A DNA stretch of 64,000 nucleotides from contig MOEB01000016.1 in assembly GCA_001939945.1 (NCBI GenBank), forward strand, positions 39,617-103,616, read 5' to 3'. How positions within the stretch are numbered: position 1 is the stretch's first letter; each line of letters begins with the position of its first letter. Position numbers and translations under genes: made by a program. Origin of the DNA: Aerophototrophica crusticola (GTDB taxonomy: Bacteria; Pseudomonadota; Alphaproteobacteria; Azospirillales; Azospirillaceae). Below are positions 13,197 through 50,139 of this stretch, one piece after another. The notes under the pieces are model-generated. The model worked only from the letters and a program-made list of their open reading frames with translations. It had not been told where the DNA came from and searched no databases.

Positions 13197-13420
13197 TGCA
13201 GGGCCCATGATGTCACCCCGGGCTTGACCCGGGGCCCTCGGGTCCGGTCGATGCAGGGCACCGAAAGCCCTTTTTCCTTTGTTCTCACCATCCGTGTCGG
13301 CCAACGCCGCGCACGAGAAGCCTCATCGGCTCCTTGTCCTGCACTCCGCTGCCGCCCCTTGGCACGTCCGCCTTCCCAAGGGCCCCGGGTCAAGCCCGGG
13401 GTGACCTCCAGCGATTTGCA
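13197..13420 (-). repeat. Long palindromic intergenic element, short form, copy 1
   Basis: A roughly 224-bp non-coding element. The terminal inverted repeats are built on TGATGTCACCCCGGGCTTGA (left, from 13208) and its complement (right, ending about 13410), and extend outward as TGCAGGGC...TTGCA. Internal marks (GAAAGCCC near 13262, GCCGCCCCTTGGCAC near 13352) also occur in the copy at 16163, but in reversed order and strand, so this copy is in the minus orientation. It ends 15 bp from the 3' end of the large metH gene. Confidence 0.8.
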
Positions 13421-13435
13421 CCAAGCCGGCAGCCC

Positions 13436-42136: not shown

Positions 42137-43966
42137 ATGCCCGTCCAGGATGCCATCCGCCGCGTCACCGACCGGATCACCGCCCGCAGCGCCGCCACCC
42201 GCGCCCAGTACCTGGAGCGCACGGCCGCGGCGCAGCGCAACGGCCCGCACCGGCAGGTGCTGGGCTGTGGCAACCTCGCCCACGGCTTCGCCGCCTGCCC
42301 CGCGTCCGACAAGGCGGCGCTGAAGGGGGCGGAGCAGGCGAACATCGCCATCGTCAGCGCCTACAACGACATGCTCTCGGCCCACCAGCCGCTGGAGCGC
42401 TTCCCCGCCATCATCAAGGAAGCCGCCCGCAAGGCCGGCGCCGTGGCCCAGTTCGCCGGCGGCGTGCCCGCCATGTGCGACGGCGTCACCCAGGGCCAGC
42501 CGGGGATGGAGCTGTCCCTGTTCAGCCGGGACGTGATCGCGCTCTCCACTGCTGTCGCCCTGTCCCACAACATGTTCGACTCGGCGCTTTACCTGGGCGT
42601 CTGCGACAAGATCGTGCCGGGCTTGCTGATCGGGGCGCTGAGCTTCGGCCACCTGCCGGCCATCTTCGTCCCCGGCGGCCCCATGCCGTCCGGCCTGCCC
42701 AACCCGGAGAAGGCCCGCATCCGCCAGCTCTACGCGGAGGGCAAGGTGGGCCGGGCGGAGCTGCTGGAGGCGGAGAGCCAGTCCTACCACGGCCCCGGCA
42801 CCTGCACCTTCTACGGCACGGCCAACTCCAACCAGATGATGATGGAGATCATGGGCCTGCACCTGCCCGGCTCCAGCTTCATCAACCCCAACACCCCCCT
42901 GCGCGACGCCCTGACCGCGGCCGCCGCCGAGCGCGCCGCCCGCATCACCGCGCTGGGCGACGAGTACACCCCCATCGCGGAGGTGGTGGACGAGAAGGCC
43001 GTGGTGAATGCCATGGTCGGCCTGCTGGCCACCGGCGGCTCCACCAACCACACCATCCATCTGGTGGCCATGGCCGCCGCGGCGGGCGTGGTGGTCGATT
43101 GGCAGGACTTCAACGACCTGTCCCAGGCCGTTCCGCTGCTCTGCCGCGTCTATCCCAACGGCGTGGCGGACGTGAACCATTTCCACGCCGCCGGCGGCAT
43201 GCAGTTCCTGATCGGGACCTTGCTGGACAACGGCCTGCTCCATGGCGACGTGAAGACCGTCGCCGGCCCCGGCGGGCTGGAGGCCTACCGCTCCGAAGCC
43301 TTCCTGGACGGGGAGGGCAGGGCCACTTGGCGTCCCGGGCCCACCGCCAGCGCCGACACGGCCGTCCTGCGCCCGGCGACGGAGCCGTTCGACAGCACCG
43401 GCGGCATCCGCCTGCTCACCGGCAACCTCGGCCGCGGCATCATCAAGGTCAGCGCCGTGAAGCCGCAGCACCGGATCGTGGAGGCCCCCGCCCGGGTGTT
43501 CGACGGGCAGGACGCCATGCTCGCCGCCTTCAAGGCGGGGGAGCTGAACCAGGACGTGGTGGTGGTCGTCCGCTGGCAGGGGCCGAAGTCCAACGGCATG
43601 CCCGAACTGCACAAGCTCACCCCCTCCCTGGGCGTGCTCCAGGACAAGGGCTTCAAGGTGGCCCTGGTCACCGACGGCCGCATGTCCGGCGCCTCCGGCA
43701 AGGTACCCGCCGCCATCCACGTCACCCCGGAATGCCTCGGCGGCGGCCCGCTGGCCCGGGTGCGCGACGGCGACATCATCCGCCTGGACGCGGAGGCCGG
43801 CACGCTGGAGGCCTTGGTGGACCCGGCCGCGTTCGCGGCGCGGGAGGTGGCCGTGCCCGACCTGACCCCCAACGGCTGGGGCATGGGCCGGGACCTGTTC
43901 GGCGCCTTCCGCGGCGTCGTCACCGGCGCCGAGCAGGGCGCCTCATCCTTCAGCTACGGGGCCTGA
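42137..43966 (+). CDS. edd: Phosphogluconate dehydratase
   Basis: A 609-residue Fe-S dehydratase of the IlvD/Edd family that converts 6-phosphogluconate to KDPG. Cys in [14 protein letters not shown] and [14 protein letters not shown] fit [4Fe-4S] ligands, and CDKIVPGLL is a family motif. [18 protein letters not shown] near the C terminus is the conserved active-site segment. It is followed by eda after 4 bp. Confidence 0.96.
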
Positions 43967-43970
43967 CCTC

Positions 43971-44657
43971 ATGGACACGATGATCGCCCCGCCCGCCGCC
44001 GGCATCGAGGCCATGCAGGCGGAGGTCGCCCGCCTCTGCACCCTCGCCCCCGTGATCCCCGTGATCGTGGTGGAGGACCTGTCCCAGGCCGTGCCCATGG
44101 CCCAGGCCCTGGTGGCCGGCGGCCTGCCGGTGCTGGAGGTGACGCTCCGCTCCGCCGTCGCCCTGGACGCCATCGCCCTGATGGCCAAGGTTCCCGGTGC
44201 CGTGGTCGGCGCCGGCACGGTGGTGCGGCCGGACCAGATCGCCGCCGTGCGCGCCGCCGGCGCCCGCTTCATGGTCAGCCCCGGCGCTTACCCGGAACTG
44301 GTGACCGCCGCCCTGGACAGCGGCATCCCCTTCCTGCCCGGGGCCGCGACGCCGTCGGAGATGATGGCCCTGCTGTCCCGTGGCATCCGCCACCAGAAAC
44401 TGTTCCCCGCCACCGTCGTGGGCGGCCTGGACATGCTGAAGGCCCTGGCCAGCCCCCTCTCCGCCATCCGCTTCTGCCCCACCGGCGGCGTCACGGCTGA
44501 GACGGCGCCCACCTTCCTTTCCCTCCCCAATGTCCTCTGCGTCGGCGGCTCCTGGGTCACGCCCAAGCCCGCCATCCAGGCCGGCGACTGGGCCACCGTG
44601 GAACGCCTGGCCCGCGAGGCGGCGGCGCTGCGGAAATCCTCCGTGCAAGGCTCCTGA
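43971..44657 (+). CDS. eda: 2-keto-3-deoxy-6-phosphogluconate aldolase
   Basis: A 228-residue KDPG aldolase that yields pyruvate and glyceraldehyde-3-phosphate. K143 in [12 protein letters not shown] is the Schiff-base lysine, and LEVTLRS holds the catalytic Glu region. [13 protein letters not shown] binds phosphate. It ends the zwf-pgl-edd-eda operon. Its TGA stop is the first three bases of the TGATGTCACC end of the palindromic element that follows. Confidence 0.96.
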
Positions 44658-45201
44658 TGTCACCCCGGGCTTGACCCGGGGTCCTCGGGGAAAGCGGACA
44701 TGCCAATGGCGCGGCAGCGGGCCTCCTCGTGGGCGTCACTCGGGGGGCGGCGTCGCTTTTGAACGCAGAGGACGCGGATGGCCGCAGAGGACACAGAGAG
44801 GTCTGGACTTACTGGAACAGTGATGACGGTGATGGCCAGGGATGACAGTGATGGGGCGGGCTTGGGGTAAAGCCAGTCCCTAAATTGATGATTGGTTTTG
44901 TTGGCGCCTTCGGCGCCAGTAAAGAGTGAAATACGTCAGGCTCTACGGCAACGCGGCACTGAGCCCTCTGTGTCCTCTGCGGCCATCTGCGTCCTCTGCG
45001 TTCCCAAATCAACGCTGGTCACGGGTGCAGAGGGGTGCAGGTGGGGGTTACATCACTGTCATCCCTGGCCATCACCGTCATCACTGCTCCGGTAAAGTGT
45101 CCCTCGGCGCAGGGGGCCGGCGGGTGGGCTTCCGGTGATTGGCACGACGCGATCCCGAGGGCCCCGGGTCAAGCCCGGGGTGACATCCAGTGCCCTGCTT
45201 G
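44643..45201 (+). repeat. Long palindromic intergenic element, long form, copy 3
   Basis: A roughly 560-bp non-coding element. The ends are CCCCGGGCTTGACCCGGGG (from 44663) and CCCCGGGTCAAGCCCGGGG (to 45182). Two inner modules each occur as inverted pairs: GCAGAGGACGCGGATGGCCG (about 44766) with its near complement (about 44975), and GATGACGGTGATGGCCAGGG (about 44822) with its complement (about 45059-45080). Most of its length matches the reverse complement of the copy at 48609. It begins inside eda. Confidence 0.88.
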
Positions 45202-45530
45202 CCTTCCTCTCAAGGTGCCTCGCACCCACAAACCCCCGTCCTGTGCCCCCTCGGCCACACCCCGTGCCATCTTCCCCGAGTCTCCCCAGAACAACCCCTT
45301 GCGTCCCACGGCGACCCGCCCTGGCCCCCATCCCTGTACCAATCCTGCCACAATCGTTCGGCACCCTTCCTGCCCAGCTCACCCGTTGCGGCTAACCTGA
45401 TGGCCGTATCATACTTCCGCGTAGGCGCGGATCGGTGGTACCTCGGCCGTCGCGAAAGGCCGCGTTAACGAAGCGGGCGTAGGACTTTCCCTAAGGCGCA
45501 GGCCGGCGGGGAAGAAGGGGTTCAAGGGGC
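45202..45530 (+). other. Upstream region of the penicillin-binding protein gene
   Basis: This 329-bp stretch has no credible ORF. A possible promoter is TTGCGG at 45386 with TCATAC at 45409 (17-bp spacing), about 115 bp before the start. GAAGAAGGGG near 45510 may serve the ribosome. This region lies inside the inverted repeat pair together with the gene. Confidence 0.4.
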
Positions 45531-48500
45531 ATGGCGCGGGCGCGGTGGATCCGAGGGATGGCCTGGGGCCTGACCCTGGCGATGGCCGGGGGCATCGGCG
45601 GTGCCGTCTGGTATGAGACCCGGACCTCCGTCTTGCAGGCCGAGGTGCTGGCCCGCTATGGCAAGGACCTGACCTTCAAGCTGGAACCCGGCCCCAACCC
45701 GGACGTGCGCTTCCCGCAGCAGGGCCCCTATGACCACCGGCTGGGCTACAGCCGCCTGCCCCAGTTCGTGGAGCGGTTGACCGCCGGCCCCTACAAGGTG
45801 GAGGCGCAGGCCCGCCCCAGCCCCGCCTTCCGCGACTATGTGGATTTCGGCGGCTTCGCGCCCTATCGGGAAAAGACCAGCGGCGGCTTGACCATCTATG
45901 ACCGTAACCGGTCCGGCCTGTTCGACGCCCGCTTCCCCGCCCGCACCTACAGGGGTTTCCAGGACGTGCCGGCCATGGTGGCCGACACGCTTCTGTTCAT
46001 CGAGAACCGGGAGCTGCTGGACCCCGCCCACCCCCACCGCAACCCGGCGGTGGAGTGGGACCGTTTCGCCCTGGCGGTCATCAACATCCCGCTGAAGATG
46101 ATCGACCCGGACAACCCAAGGGCGGGCGGCTCCACCCTGGCGACCCAGATCGAGAAATACCGCCACAGCCCCGAGGGCCGCACCGGCAGCAGCGTGGAGA
46201 AGCTGCGTCAGATGATGTCCGCCTCCGTCCGCGCCTACCTGAACGGCCCGGACACCACGATGGTGCGCCACCAGATCGTGGTGGACTACCTGAACTCCAC
46301 GCCCCTGTCGGCCCGCGCCGGCATCGGTGAGGTGAACGGGCTGGGCGACGGGCTCTGGGCCTGGTACGGCAGCGACTTCGCCACCGTGAACCGCATCCTC
46401 AAGACCGCCCCCCGGACGGAGGAGGAGCTGAAGGTCCAGGCCGTGGCCTACAAGCAGGTGCTCAGCCTGCTGCTTGCCCAAAGGCGGCCCAGCTACTACC
46501 TGGCCCAGGACCGCAACGCCCTGAACGAGTTGGCGAACAGCCACCTCCGCCTGCTGGAGGGTGCGGGCGTCATCAGCCCGGCCCTGGCCGACGCCGCCCG
46601 CTTCTTCCCCCTGCGCTTCCGCCCGGAGCCGCCGGACCTGCCCGAGCCCAGCTTCGTGGAGCAGAAGGCCACCAACGCCATCCGCAACCGACTGCTGGCC
46701 ACCCTGGGCGTCTCCAGCCTGTATGAGCTGGACCGCTTCGACCTGACCGTGGACACCACCCTGGACCAGCCGAGCCAGGAACGGGTGACCGCCATGCTGA
46801 AGCGGCTGGCCGACCCGGCGCAGGCGAAGGAGCTGGGCCTAGTCGGCGATCGGCTGCTGAACGACGCCGATCCGTCCAAGGTGGTCTACAGCGTCACCCT
46901 GTATGAGCGCACGCCCACCGCCAACCTGGTGCGGGTGCAGGTGGACACCCTGGCCCAGCCGCTCGACCTGAACGAGGGCGCCAAGCTCGACCTGGGCTCC
47001 ACCGCCAAGCTGCGCACCCTGGCCACCTACCTGGAGATCGTCGCCAAGCTGCACGACCGCCTGTCCGGCAAGGCGGAGCATGAGCTGTCGGCCGTCGCGG
47101 CCGACGCGCCGGACCGGCTGACCGAATGGGTTGCCCGCACCTTGTCCGCCCAGCCGCACCTGGACCGGGCGGCCATCCTGGACTTGGCCATGCAGCGGCA
47201 ATACTCCGCCAGCCCGGCGGAGCGGTTCTTCACCGGCGGCGGCCTGCACAGCTTCGGCAATTTCGACGACAAGGACGACCACAAGGTCATGCCGGTGTGG
47301 GACGCCTTCCGGCATTCCACCAACCTGGTGTTCATCCGGCTGATGCGGGACATCGTCAACCACTACATCGCCGAGGGCCCGGCCCGGCGTGACGACGTGC
47401 TGGACGACCCCCGCCACCCCGCCCGCAAGACCTACCTGGCCCGCTTCGCCGACCAGGAAGGCACGGATTTCCTGAACCGCTTCTGGGCGGACTACCGGGA
47501 CATGGACGGCGACAAGGCCCTGGACAAGCTGGGCTCCAAGATCCGCAAGACGCCGGACAAGCTCGCCACCGCCTTCCGCTCCGTCCGCCCTCAGGCGGGG
47601 GTGCGGGAGCTGTCGGCCTTCCTGGCCCGGCACCTGCCCGCCGGCGCGCCCACGCCGGGCCAGGTCCAGTCCCTCTATGACAAGTACGCCCCCGACGCCT
47701 GGTCCCTGAACGACCGGGGCTACATCGCCGGGGTGCACCCGCTGGAGCTGTGGCTGGTGGCCTATTTGCAGGACAGCCCCAAGCCCAAGCGCAAGGACAT
47801 GCTGAAGGAAAGCTCCAGTAGTCGGCAGGAAAGCTACCAGTGGCTGTTCACCACCCGGCACAAGCGGGCGCAGGACAAGCGCATCGGCATCGTGCTGGAG
47901 GAGGAGGCGTTCCAGCGCCTGCACGCGGACTGGAAGCGGCTGGGCTACCCGTTCGAAAGCCTGATCGCCAGCTACGCCACCTCCATCGGCAGCTCCGCCG
48001 ACCGGCCCGGCGCCCTGGCGGAGCTGATGGGCGTCATCGTCAATGACGGCGTGCGCCTGCCCACCGGCCGCATCAGCCGCCTGCACTTCGCCGAGGGCAC
48101 GCCCTACGAGACTATCTTCAGCTTCGACGGGCAGGAGCGGGGCCAGCAGGTCATGGACCCGGATGTCGCCCGCACCCTGCGCCGCCACCTGATGGACATC
48201 GTGGAGAACGGCACCGCTCGCCGCGTCCGCGGTGCCTTCACCAACGCTGACGGCAGCGCCATCCCCGTGGGCGGCAAGACCGGCACCGGCGACCACCGGT
48301 TCGAACGCTACGGCCCCGGCGGCGTGGTGCTCGAAAGCCGCGTGGTCAACCGCACCGCCACCTTCGTCTTCTACATCGGCGACCGCTTCTTCGGCGTCAT
48401 CACCGCCCACGTCCACGGGCAAGAGGCCGCCAAGTACCGCTTCACCTCGGCCCTGCCGTCCCAGATCCTGAAAATCCTCGCCCCGGCCCTCCAGCCCCTG

Positions 48501-48590
48501 ATGACCAACGGCGTCCAGACGGCCGAACGGACGGAGGACCCCAAGCCCACGGCCGTGGTCCCGGTGGGGTATCCCGTGGCGCGGCCATAA
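45531..48590 (+). CDS. Unusual class A penicillin-binding protein (GT51 plus transpeptidase)
   Basis: A 1019-residue bitopic protein with one N-terminal membrane anchor (about 8-28). The glycosyltransferase-51 part has FIENRE (E158 is the probable catalytic Glu) and GGSTLATQI. The transpeptidase part has S490-TAK (SxxK), S596-TN (SxN) and K916-TG in GGKTGTGD. About 320 residues separate SxN from KTG, far more than usual, and hold a large insert (about 610-830). It probably polymerises and crosslinks peptidoglycan, with the insert giving a special role. It is alone between repeats. Confidence 0.87.
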   Translation: MARARWIRGMAWGLTLAMAGGIGGAVWYETRTSVLQAEVLARYGKDLTFKLEPGPNPDVRFPQQGPYDHRLGYSRLPQFVERLTAGPYKVEAQARPSPAFRDYVDFGGFAPYREKTSGGLTIYDRNRSGLFDARFPARTYRGFQDVPAMVADTLLFIENRELLDPAHPHRNPAVEWDRFALAVINIPLKMIDPDNPRAGGSTLATQIEKYRHSPEGRTGSSVEKLRQMMSASVRAYLNGPDTTMVRHQIVVDYLNSTPLSARAGIGEVNGLGDGLWAWYGSDFATVNRILKTAPRTEEELKVQAVAYKQVLSLLLAQRRPSYYLAQDRNALNELANSHLRLLEGAGVISPALADAARFFPLRFRPEPPDLPEPSFVEQKATNAIRNRLLATLGVSSLYELDRFDLTVDTTLDQPSQERVTAMLKRLADPAQAKELGLVGDRLLNDADPSKVVYSVTLYERTPTANLVRVQVDTLAQPLDLNEGAKLDLGSTAKLRTLATYLEIVAKLHDRLSGKAEHELSAVAADAPDRLTEWVARTLSAQPHLDRAAILDLAMQRQYSASPAERFFTGGGLHSFGNFDDKDDHKVMPVWDAFRHSTNLVFIRLMRDIVNHYIAEGPARRDDVLDDPRHPARKTYLARFADQEGTDFLNRFWADYRDMDGDKALDKLGSKIRKTPDKLATAFRSVRPQAGVRELSAFLARHLPAGAPTPGQVQSLYDKYAPDAWSLNDRGYIAGVHPLELWLVAYLQDSPKPKRKDMLKESSSSRQESYQWLFTTRHKRAQDKRIGIVLEEEAFQRLHADWKRLGYPFESLIASYATSIGSSADRPGALAELMGVIVNDGVRLPTGRISRLHFAEGTPYETIFSFDGQERGQQVMDPDVARTLRRHLMDIVENGTARRVRGAFTNADGSAIPVGGKTGTGDHRFERYGPGGVVLESRVVNRTATFVFYIGDRFFGVITAHVHGQEAAKYRFTSALPSQILKILAPALQPLMTNGVQTAERTEDPKPTAVVPVGYPVARP

Positions 48591-48608
48591 GCCTGATGTT
48601 TTCGGCAT

Positions 48609-49158
48609 TGCAGTGCACTGGATGTCACCCCGGGCTTGACCCGGGGCCCTCGGGATCGCGCCGTGCCAATCACCGAAAGCGCACCCGCCGGCCAATTGCA
48701 CCCGGGTGAACTTACAAGAACAGTGATGACGGTGATGGCCAGGGATGACAGTGATGCATCCCCCACCTCCACCCCTCTGCGCCTGTGACCGGCGTTGATT
48801 TGGGAACGCAGAGGACGCAAATGGCCGCAGAGGACACAGAGGGGTCAGTGCCACGGCGCCCGTTGGGCCCGACGCTATTTCCCGTCACTGGCACCGCAGG
48901 CGCCAACAGGATCATTCTTTGATTGAGGCCCAACCTGTCCCCAAGCCCGCCCCATCACTGTCATCCCTGGCCATCACCGTCATCACTGTTCCAGTAAGTT
49001 CAATTCCTCTCTGTGTCCTCTACGGCCATCTGGGTCCTCCGCGTTCCAAAGCGACGCATCCATCGCACCAAAGCCAGTCGGGAGGCCCGCTGCCGCGCCA
49101 CTGGTACGCCCGCTTTCCCGAGGAGCCCGGGTCAAGCCCGGGCTGACATCATTGCTTG
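48609..49158 (-). repeat. Long palindromic intergenic element, long form, copy 4
   Basis: A roughly 550-bp element between the penicillin-binding protein and ldh genes, homologous over nearly its whole length to the copy at 44643 but inverted. The ends are TGCACTGGATGTCACCCCGG (from 48614) and GCCCGGGCTGACATCATTGC (to about 49155). The inner modules are GATGACGGTGATGGCCAGGG (about 48725) and GCAGAGGACGCAAATGGCCG (about 48809), with complementary partners near 48960 and 49015. No gene is visible in it. Confidence 0.88.
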
Positions 49159-49167
49159 GCCAGGGCC

Positions 49168-50139
<972 letters not shown>

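Follow-up and report, generated by a model that had tools for sequence, protein, structure and literature searches.

Two inverted composite elements around a penicillin-binding protein gene

The stretch of DNA analysed here (the window, 64,000 nucleotides) corresponds to C68:39617-103616 of the 6.06-Mb draft genome of Aerophototrophica crusticola (G000, the "own genome" below). It harbors a gene for a penicillin-binding protein (PBP), enclosed, as the original prediction had proposed, between two inverted copies of a non-coding repeat located at 44643-45198 and 48609-49152. Each copy is a composite of an outer module (A), two pairs of inverted arms (B/B' and C/C'), and a core, and belongs to a family dispersed over the genome. 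Arms of the same design frame many open reading frames (ORFs) of the GxxExxY family (PF13366). With somewhat better than even confidence, the copies are nested ORF-less repeats, likely non-autonomous derivatives of an apparently mobile, solitary GxxExxY element with inverted arms of about four 9-10-nt units. The features of the locus are the following.

44643..45198, plus strand: copy 1, composite A-B-C-core-B'-C'-A' (self-comparison, genome search, pairwise alignment)
44643..44735, plus strand: copy 1 outer module A, left part (GTCACCCCGGGCTTGACCCGGGG, REP-like hairpin; self-comparison, genome search)
44757..44801, plus strand: copy 1 arm B, GCAGAGGAC-type units, spacing 9-10-9 (arm pattern, unit-spacing score)
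44804..44857, plus strand: copy 1 arm C, AGTGATGAC-type units, spacing 9-10-9 (arm pattern, unit-spacing score)
44903..44917, no strand: copy 1 core hairpin GGCGCCTTCGGCGCC (read from the sequence; core region 53% identical between copies)
44961..45007, minus strand: copy 1 arm B' (self-comparison, arm pattern, unit-spacing score)
45050..45098, minus strand: copy 1 arm C' (self-comparison, arm pattern, unit-spacing score)
45126..45198, plus strand: copy 1 outer module A, right part (self-comparison, pairwise alignment)
48609..49152, minus strand: copy 2, same composite inverted (self-comparison; 84.5% identical to copy 1)
48609..48680, minus strand: copy 2 outer module A, right part in element orientation (self-comparison)
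48707..48757, plus strand: copy 2 C-flavour arm (self-comparison, arm pattern, unit-spacing score)
48800..48846, plus strand: copy 2 B-flavour arm (self-comparison, arm pattern, unit-spacing score)
48953..49002, minus strand: copy 2 C-flavour partner arm (self-comparison, arm pattern, unit-spacing score)
49006..49052, minus strand: copy 2 B-flavour partner arm (self-comparison, arm pattern; best-scoring spacing 9-10-11)
49081..49152, minus strand: copy 2 outer module A, left part in element orientation (self-comparison)
45531..48590, plus strand: enclosed PBP gene, 1019 aa, a bystander (transglycosylase PF00912 and transpeptidase PF00905, Pfam)

When one copy is inverted, the two align over nearly their full length (84.5% identity, 541 aligned bases, 18 gap columns). 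Self-comparison of the window reveals terminal inverted repeats at the copies, and the match runs through interior segments as well as the ends, with inverted arms of 149, 104, 64, and 52 nt at 88-98%; the copies share more than short end hairpins. The inner inverted modules that had been predicted are present, but they do not form a simple palindrome, as the B/B' and C/C' pairs cross. Owing to this crossing, insertion of one element in another cannot alone produce the module order. Neither copy has an ORF of its own, again as predicted: no ORF of at least 100 aa is confined to either of them, and the several ORFs of this length that cross the copy edges are judged spurious. As single-stranded DNA, copy 1 folds with a strength far beyond chance (-179.3 kcal/mol, versus a shuffle mean of -111.2, standard deviation 5.0, n = 100, z -13.6). 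A search for known RNA families over positions 43900-49900 returned nothing at gathering score, its two matches being at chance level (E 0.16 and 0.46).

A genome-wide family of nested repeats

Read in copy-1 orientation, the modules follow the order A-B-C-core-B'-C'-A'. Module A, akin to repetitive extragenic palindromic (REP) sequences, is a GC-rich imperfect palindrome that ends in hairpins, TGCA standing at the ends or close to them. It recurs, with neither B nor C, at a minimum of 28 further places in the own genome, a hand count that is a lower bound, since 40 of 113 first-look candidates were scored in the copy search. Arms B and C share one design, GGAAC and then four units at spacings of 9, 10, and 9 nt. 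A degenerate pattern of this design retrieves 53 arms in the own genome at up to three mismatches, and the reversed pattern retrieves none. B..B' pairs without C stand at eight places, at one of them beside half an A, and a ninth B..B' site (on C2) contains a degenerate C; a solitary C..C' pair occurs at one site. The family comes in forms of ~550 bp and ~200 bp. An A-type element (L104, G000:C245:4823-5152) has the left end of A on both sides and an insert of a third arm flavour, CACCAAGAAGACAAGAAGGACACG on one side and GTGTTCTTCGTGTCCTTCGTG on the other.

A genome-wide count gave eight long copies in addition to these standalone modules: the two of the window and those on C141, C172, C193, C99, C294 (cut by the contig end), and at C1:59418 (devoid of the outer module). 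Identity is 84.9% between copy 1 and C141, 84.5% between copy 1 and copy 2, 82.8% between copy 2 and C141, 84.0% between C193 and C294, and 66-76% for the remaining pairs. Over the eight long copies, conservation is 87-90% in the arms, 78-83% in A, 53% in the core, and 53-61% in the spacers. Within an element, B and B' are no more alike than between elements (34.5 vs 34.5 of 38, 15 elements, p 0.45), which favours a conserved recognition sequence over conserved pairing. According to a crude gene finder, of 19 element sites of the own genome 9 lie between convergent genes, 8 between tandem genes, and 1 between divergent genes, with 1 undetermined. Copy 1 has no match in plasmid records, and the B/C pattern is found 0 times in viral contigs.

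A search of 59 genomes (G000 included), in which the ten best candidates per genome were scored and short copies may be missed, yielded no full copy in any of ten genus relatives; the relative G007 has a short A-like match. With eight long copies in the own genome and none found in full in the relatives, the pair is not a feature conserved at one place and lacking other copies, the case that would have spoken against the original prediction. Each of 11 genus genomes has a single match to the PBP gene. Its neighbours in the window are genes for a 2-keto-3-deoxy-6-phosphogluconate aldolase (eda) and a lactate/malate dehydrogenase (ldh), neither of which was seen next to it in the ten relatives (in G003 the contig ends at the gene start, and one side is visible), nor was the eda-PBP-ldh order found there as an empty site for the window copies. 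Several types of PBP gene neighbourhood exist within the genus, in relatives without a full copy.

It had been suggested that the pair forms an invertible or mobilisable cassette, in which recombination between the inverted copies flips the enclosed PBP segment. Inverted copies of 84.5% identity do flank the gene, and homologous recombination between them is possible in principle. However, copy 1 is equally close to C141 (84.9%), and the six other long copies lie on separate contigs with no partner among the matches listed. Furthermore, the PBP gene is found in other contexts in relatives lacking full copies, so that the inverted pair does not explain the position of the gene. An inverted arrangement was not seen, in an analysis without sequencing reads. 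The cassette is left unsupported, and is hardly credible.

A second alternative starts from module A, which resembles the paired hairpins of REP sequences and of bacterial interspersed mosaic elements (BIMEs), spread by a REP-associated tyrosine transposase (RAYT). Its GC-rich imperfect palindrome with hairpin ends and its many further places would fit such a system. Y1_Tnp (PF01797), however, has no match in the own genome and one weak match (24.5 bits, cut-off 23) among 11 genus genomes, whereas 5 of 14 control genomes are positive. A RAYT would moreover leave B, C, and the arms around GxxExxY genes (see below) unexplained, making this origin distinctly unlikely. RAYT was rejected as the mover, none having been found in the own genome.

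Inverted arms framing GxxExxY genes

An exact scan for the B/C pattern in 84,980 species genomes, among which records near the own genome may be left out, retrieved seven stretches in four genomes: a Geothrix, a Holophagaceae, another acidobacterial metagenome-assembled genome, and Geomonas propionica. The Geothrix stretch L173 shows 1 difference in 38 positions from an own B arm (C1:655105) and has a second flavour (ACGGAAGAC type) nested inside. Across L173-L179, in the Geothrix, the Holophagaceae, the other acidobacterium, and the Geomonas, arms of the same design lie mostly shortly after apparent gene ends, some with a second flavour and GC-rich hairpins nested.

A suspected link to GxxExxY genes was tested with PF13366. 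The domain is present in seven of eight chosen genomes; the own genome has three occurrences, and the four genomes of the scan have 5, 5, 5, and 4. Among the relatives, G001 has none, G005 a weak match, and G007 one degraded-looking occurrence. Its distribution in the class is sporadic (26 of 385 genomes), and GxxExxY has no match in phage records.

Many GxxExxY ORFs are tightly framed by inverted arms of tandem units, with a flavour particular to each locus. Arms were scored by comparing the 200 nt upstream of the domain with the 250 nt downstream of it and taking the best local inverted match, with a threshold of at least 18. The 47 loci tested comprise 24 from the eight chosen genomes, 16 full-length class loci away from contig edges, and 7 from named plasmid records; inverted arms reach the threshold at 20, 12, and 4 of these, respectively, hence at 36 of 47 loci. 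For the class set, 27 loci were fetched, 12 of which reach 18; the 11 loci left out were partial, weak, or at a contig edge, and none of them reaches 18. Windows displaced by 400, 700, and 1000 nt reach the threshold at 5, 4, and 4 of the 47 loci, mismatched pairs do so in 4.5% of 2162 cases, and none of 31 control loci (the PBP, edd, and ldh genes of the genus) does. The arms were also measured independently, as four similar 7-mers at the unit spacing; a score of at least 25 is reached in 42 of 92 flank windows from 46 loci, versus 0 of 62 control windows; L186, a weak match, was kept in the 47-locus test and excluded from this one. The 9-(10 to 12)-9 spacing of B and C recurs in these flanks, beside 10-10-10, 8-9-10, and others.

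The flavours of the window arms can be traced to individual loci. At L200, a GxxExxY locus of the Holophagaceae, the score of the B arm is 27, whereas 200 shuffled arms reach at most 19 over all loci; the loci next in score, at 17, fall within what shuffled arms attain. For the C arm, L182 gives a score of 20 (shuffled best 18), with opposite polarity.

Two loci illustrate the framing. In Sphingomonas parapaucimobilis (NZ_CP155749), the order is fabD, arm, GxxExxY ORF, inverted arm, and fabG, with a fabD-fabG spacer of 464 nt; without the element, this spacer measures 32 nt in Sphingomonas paeninsulae and 24 nt in Sinorhizobium meliloti. In Bacteroides finegoldii (NZ_OY725952), radA is followed by CACCACAGAGGACGCAGAGGACACGGAG, a GxxExxY ORF, an inverted arm, and a flavin adenine dinucleotide (FAD) gene, 478 nt in all. 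The radA spacer is 13 nt long in Parabacteroides distasonis, and in Phocaeicola massiliensis the radA gap holds another coding-like stretch, where tblastn detects no GxxExxY. From these sequence comparisons, both loci look like insertions, the Sphingomonas pair being the only one within a single genus.

In the flank of the own GxxExxY locus L196 (G000:C296:8828-9169), an ORF-less inverted arm pair lies upstream of the ORF, around a GCTGCGCCGCAGGC hairpin that recurs in the standalone C element L095. In G007, the degraded-looking GxxExxY gene (L185) stands between flanks similar to those of L196.

Probable derivation of the window copies and its alternatives

The arms found at genes of the GxxExxY family (TIGR04256 / PF13366) match those of the window in unit length and spacing, and in B flavour at L200. 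Unlike the framed genes, the window copies are devoid of an ORF. They are hence regarded as derivatives, not members, of the proposed element, because no GxxExxY ORF lies between their arms. The GxxExxY protein is predicted to have a fold like that of Cas4/RecB-type PD-(D/E)XK nucleases; a passage of PMC8934634 reports as GxxExxY a gene judged cas4 by another program, in line with a Cas4-like fold. In the mechanism that we infer, the nuclease would recognise tandem units that share its flavour, and would cut the palindromic ends or process them. The segment delimited by the arms, whether it contains the ORF or not, would then be copied into new intergenic sites, ORF-less copies being moved in trans. 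Insertion of elements into one another would yield nests such as A[B C core B' C']. On this account, the elements would be mobile, and the pair around the PBP gene would represent two independent insertions in one neighbourhood, not a switch.

The arms might instead be host signals, such as bidirectional terminators, nuclease barriers, or binding sites, that gather between genes, where GxxExxY genes happen to be located. The strong folding of copy 1, the 9 of 19 own-genome sites between convergent genes, and a single arm position that covaries in both arms would all suit such signals. Yet these arms are rare or absent in windows 400-1000 nt away and at the 31 other genes, every framed locus has its own flavour in both arms, and the ten genus relatives lack a full copy. 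Host signals are therefore an unlikely explanation.

Bacterial miniature inverted-repeat transposable elements (MITEs), as described in passages of PMC10969869, are alike in being short and geneless, with inverted ends and many copies; the better conservation of the ends than of the interior is likewise found in type II MITEs. According to the same passages, MITEs are normally <500 bp, and their target-site duplications fade with age. The term "MITE-like" used in the original prediction is apt in that the copies are short, geneless, dispersed, and not found in full in the ten relatives, and less so in that ~550 bp slightly exceeds this norm. Ordinary MITEs, stemming from an insertion sequence with an unrecognised transposase, would account for short, dispersed elements with inverted ends and no gene. 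In contrast to MITEs, the window arms are GC-rich arrays of ~9-nt units, nested and in crossing pairs, no target-site duplication was seen by eye at six long copies, and the ORF-bearing counterpart has a nuclease gene, not an insertion-sequence transposase. Arrays of ~9-nt units are not typical of insertion-sequence ends, and matching arms elsewhere frame GxxExxY genes. Ordinary MITEs are thus very unlikely.

Several observations weigh against the derivation from a GxxExxY element. Among the 47 loci, 11 fail the arm test, and the control genes are few and from a single genus. At two of these 11, L259 (a Fusobacteria bacterium) and L261 (Persicobacter), the flanking repeats look direct, not inverted, by eye. 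By eye, the Bacteroides arm resembles B, but its score against the B arm is 17, which does not exceed the best shuffled score of 19. Among the three GxxExxY genes of the own genome, no cognate gene of B or C flavour was found: the flavours are ACGGAC at L184 and AACGGAT at L190, and L196 has no arms on both sides. Given these other flavours, a lost partner may have left B and C behind as relics, and the window copies may themselves be relics. One variable B-arm position (T or G before GGCC) has the same letter in both arms of 14 of 15 elements (p 0.0015), as pairing or subfamily descent would produce, which leaves arm pairing in play as a constraint. That no target-site duplications were seen counts here too, as does the lack of a clean empty site among those sought in the genus of the window. 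For a B element between FlgN and MotA, FlgN was not found next to MotA in any of the four relatives that have a close MotA. For the GxxExxY gene L184, the rdgB-hemW interval holds another gene, glyoxalase-like by our reading, in the four relatives having both genes; hemW was not found near rdgB in six other relatives. No movement of an element was observed. Finally, two copies beside one gene are unlikely under random insertion, a coincidence that the GxxExxY derivation leaves unexplained.

A single GxxExxY query retrieves 4119 database proteins at E ≤ 0.001, and sequence comparison gives no relative of solved structure. The literature passages on the family give no function for it, and no association of GxxExxY with repeat arms was found in the open-licence PMC literature. 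The nearest account is that of the "multicopy nucleotide sequences" of Geobacter bemidjiensis and G. metallireducens, intergenic families built from palindromes or short direct repeats, often several per spacer, whose insertion is judged non-random in passages of PMC2996986 and PMC2700814; these passages contain neither a GxxExxY link nor a mobile-element model. The window repeats are likely reduced relatives of an undescribed mobile element.

More tentatively, and with slightly less than even confidence, solitary Cas4-like GxxExxY nucleases and flavour-coded inverted arms may constitute a class of mobile elements without a transposase, present in many phyla, whose nested ORF-less copies account for the cryptic CACAGAGGACACAGAG-type repeats of many genomes. 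The association with a recognisable DNA arm provides the GxxExxY family with a testable substrate, and suggests where a type of repeat found between genes in Alphaproteobacteria, Acidobacteriota, Geomonas, and Bacteroidota might come from. Should the flavours represent a protein-DNA code, comparison of proteins with arms could serve to decode the 9-nt unit. For the window, a genome-wide repeat family takes the place of a PBP "switch".

Two minor observations can be added. A 13-nt motif string occurs in PMC12547741, a paper unrelated by its title. Within the window, a standalone REP-like A element with no B or C inside lies at 13198-13424.
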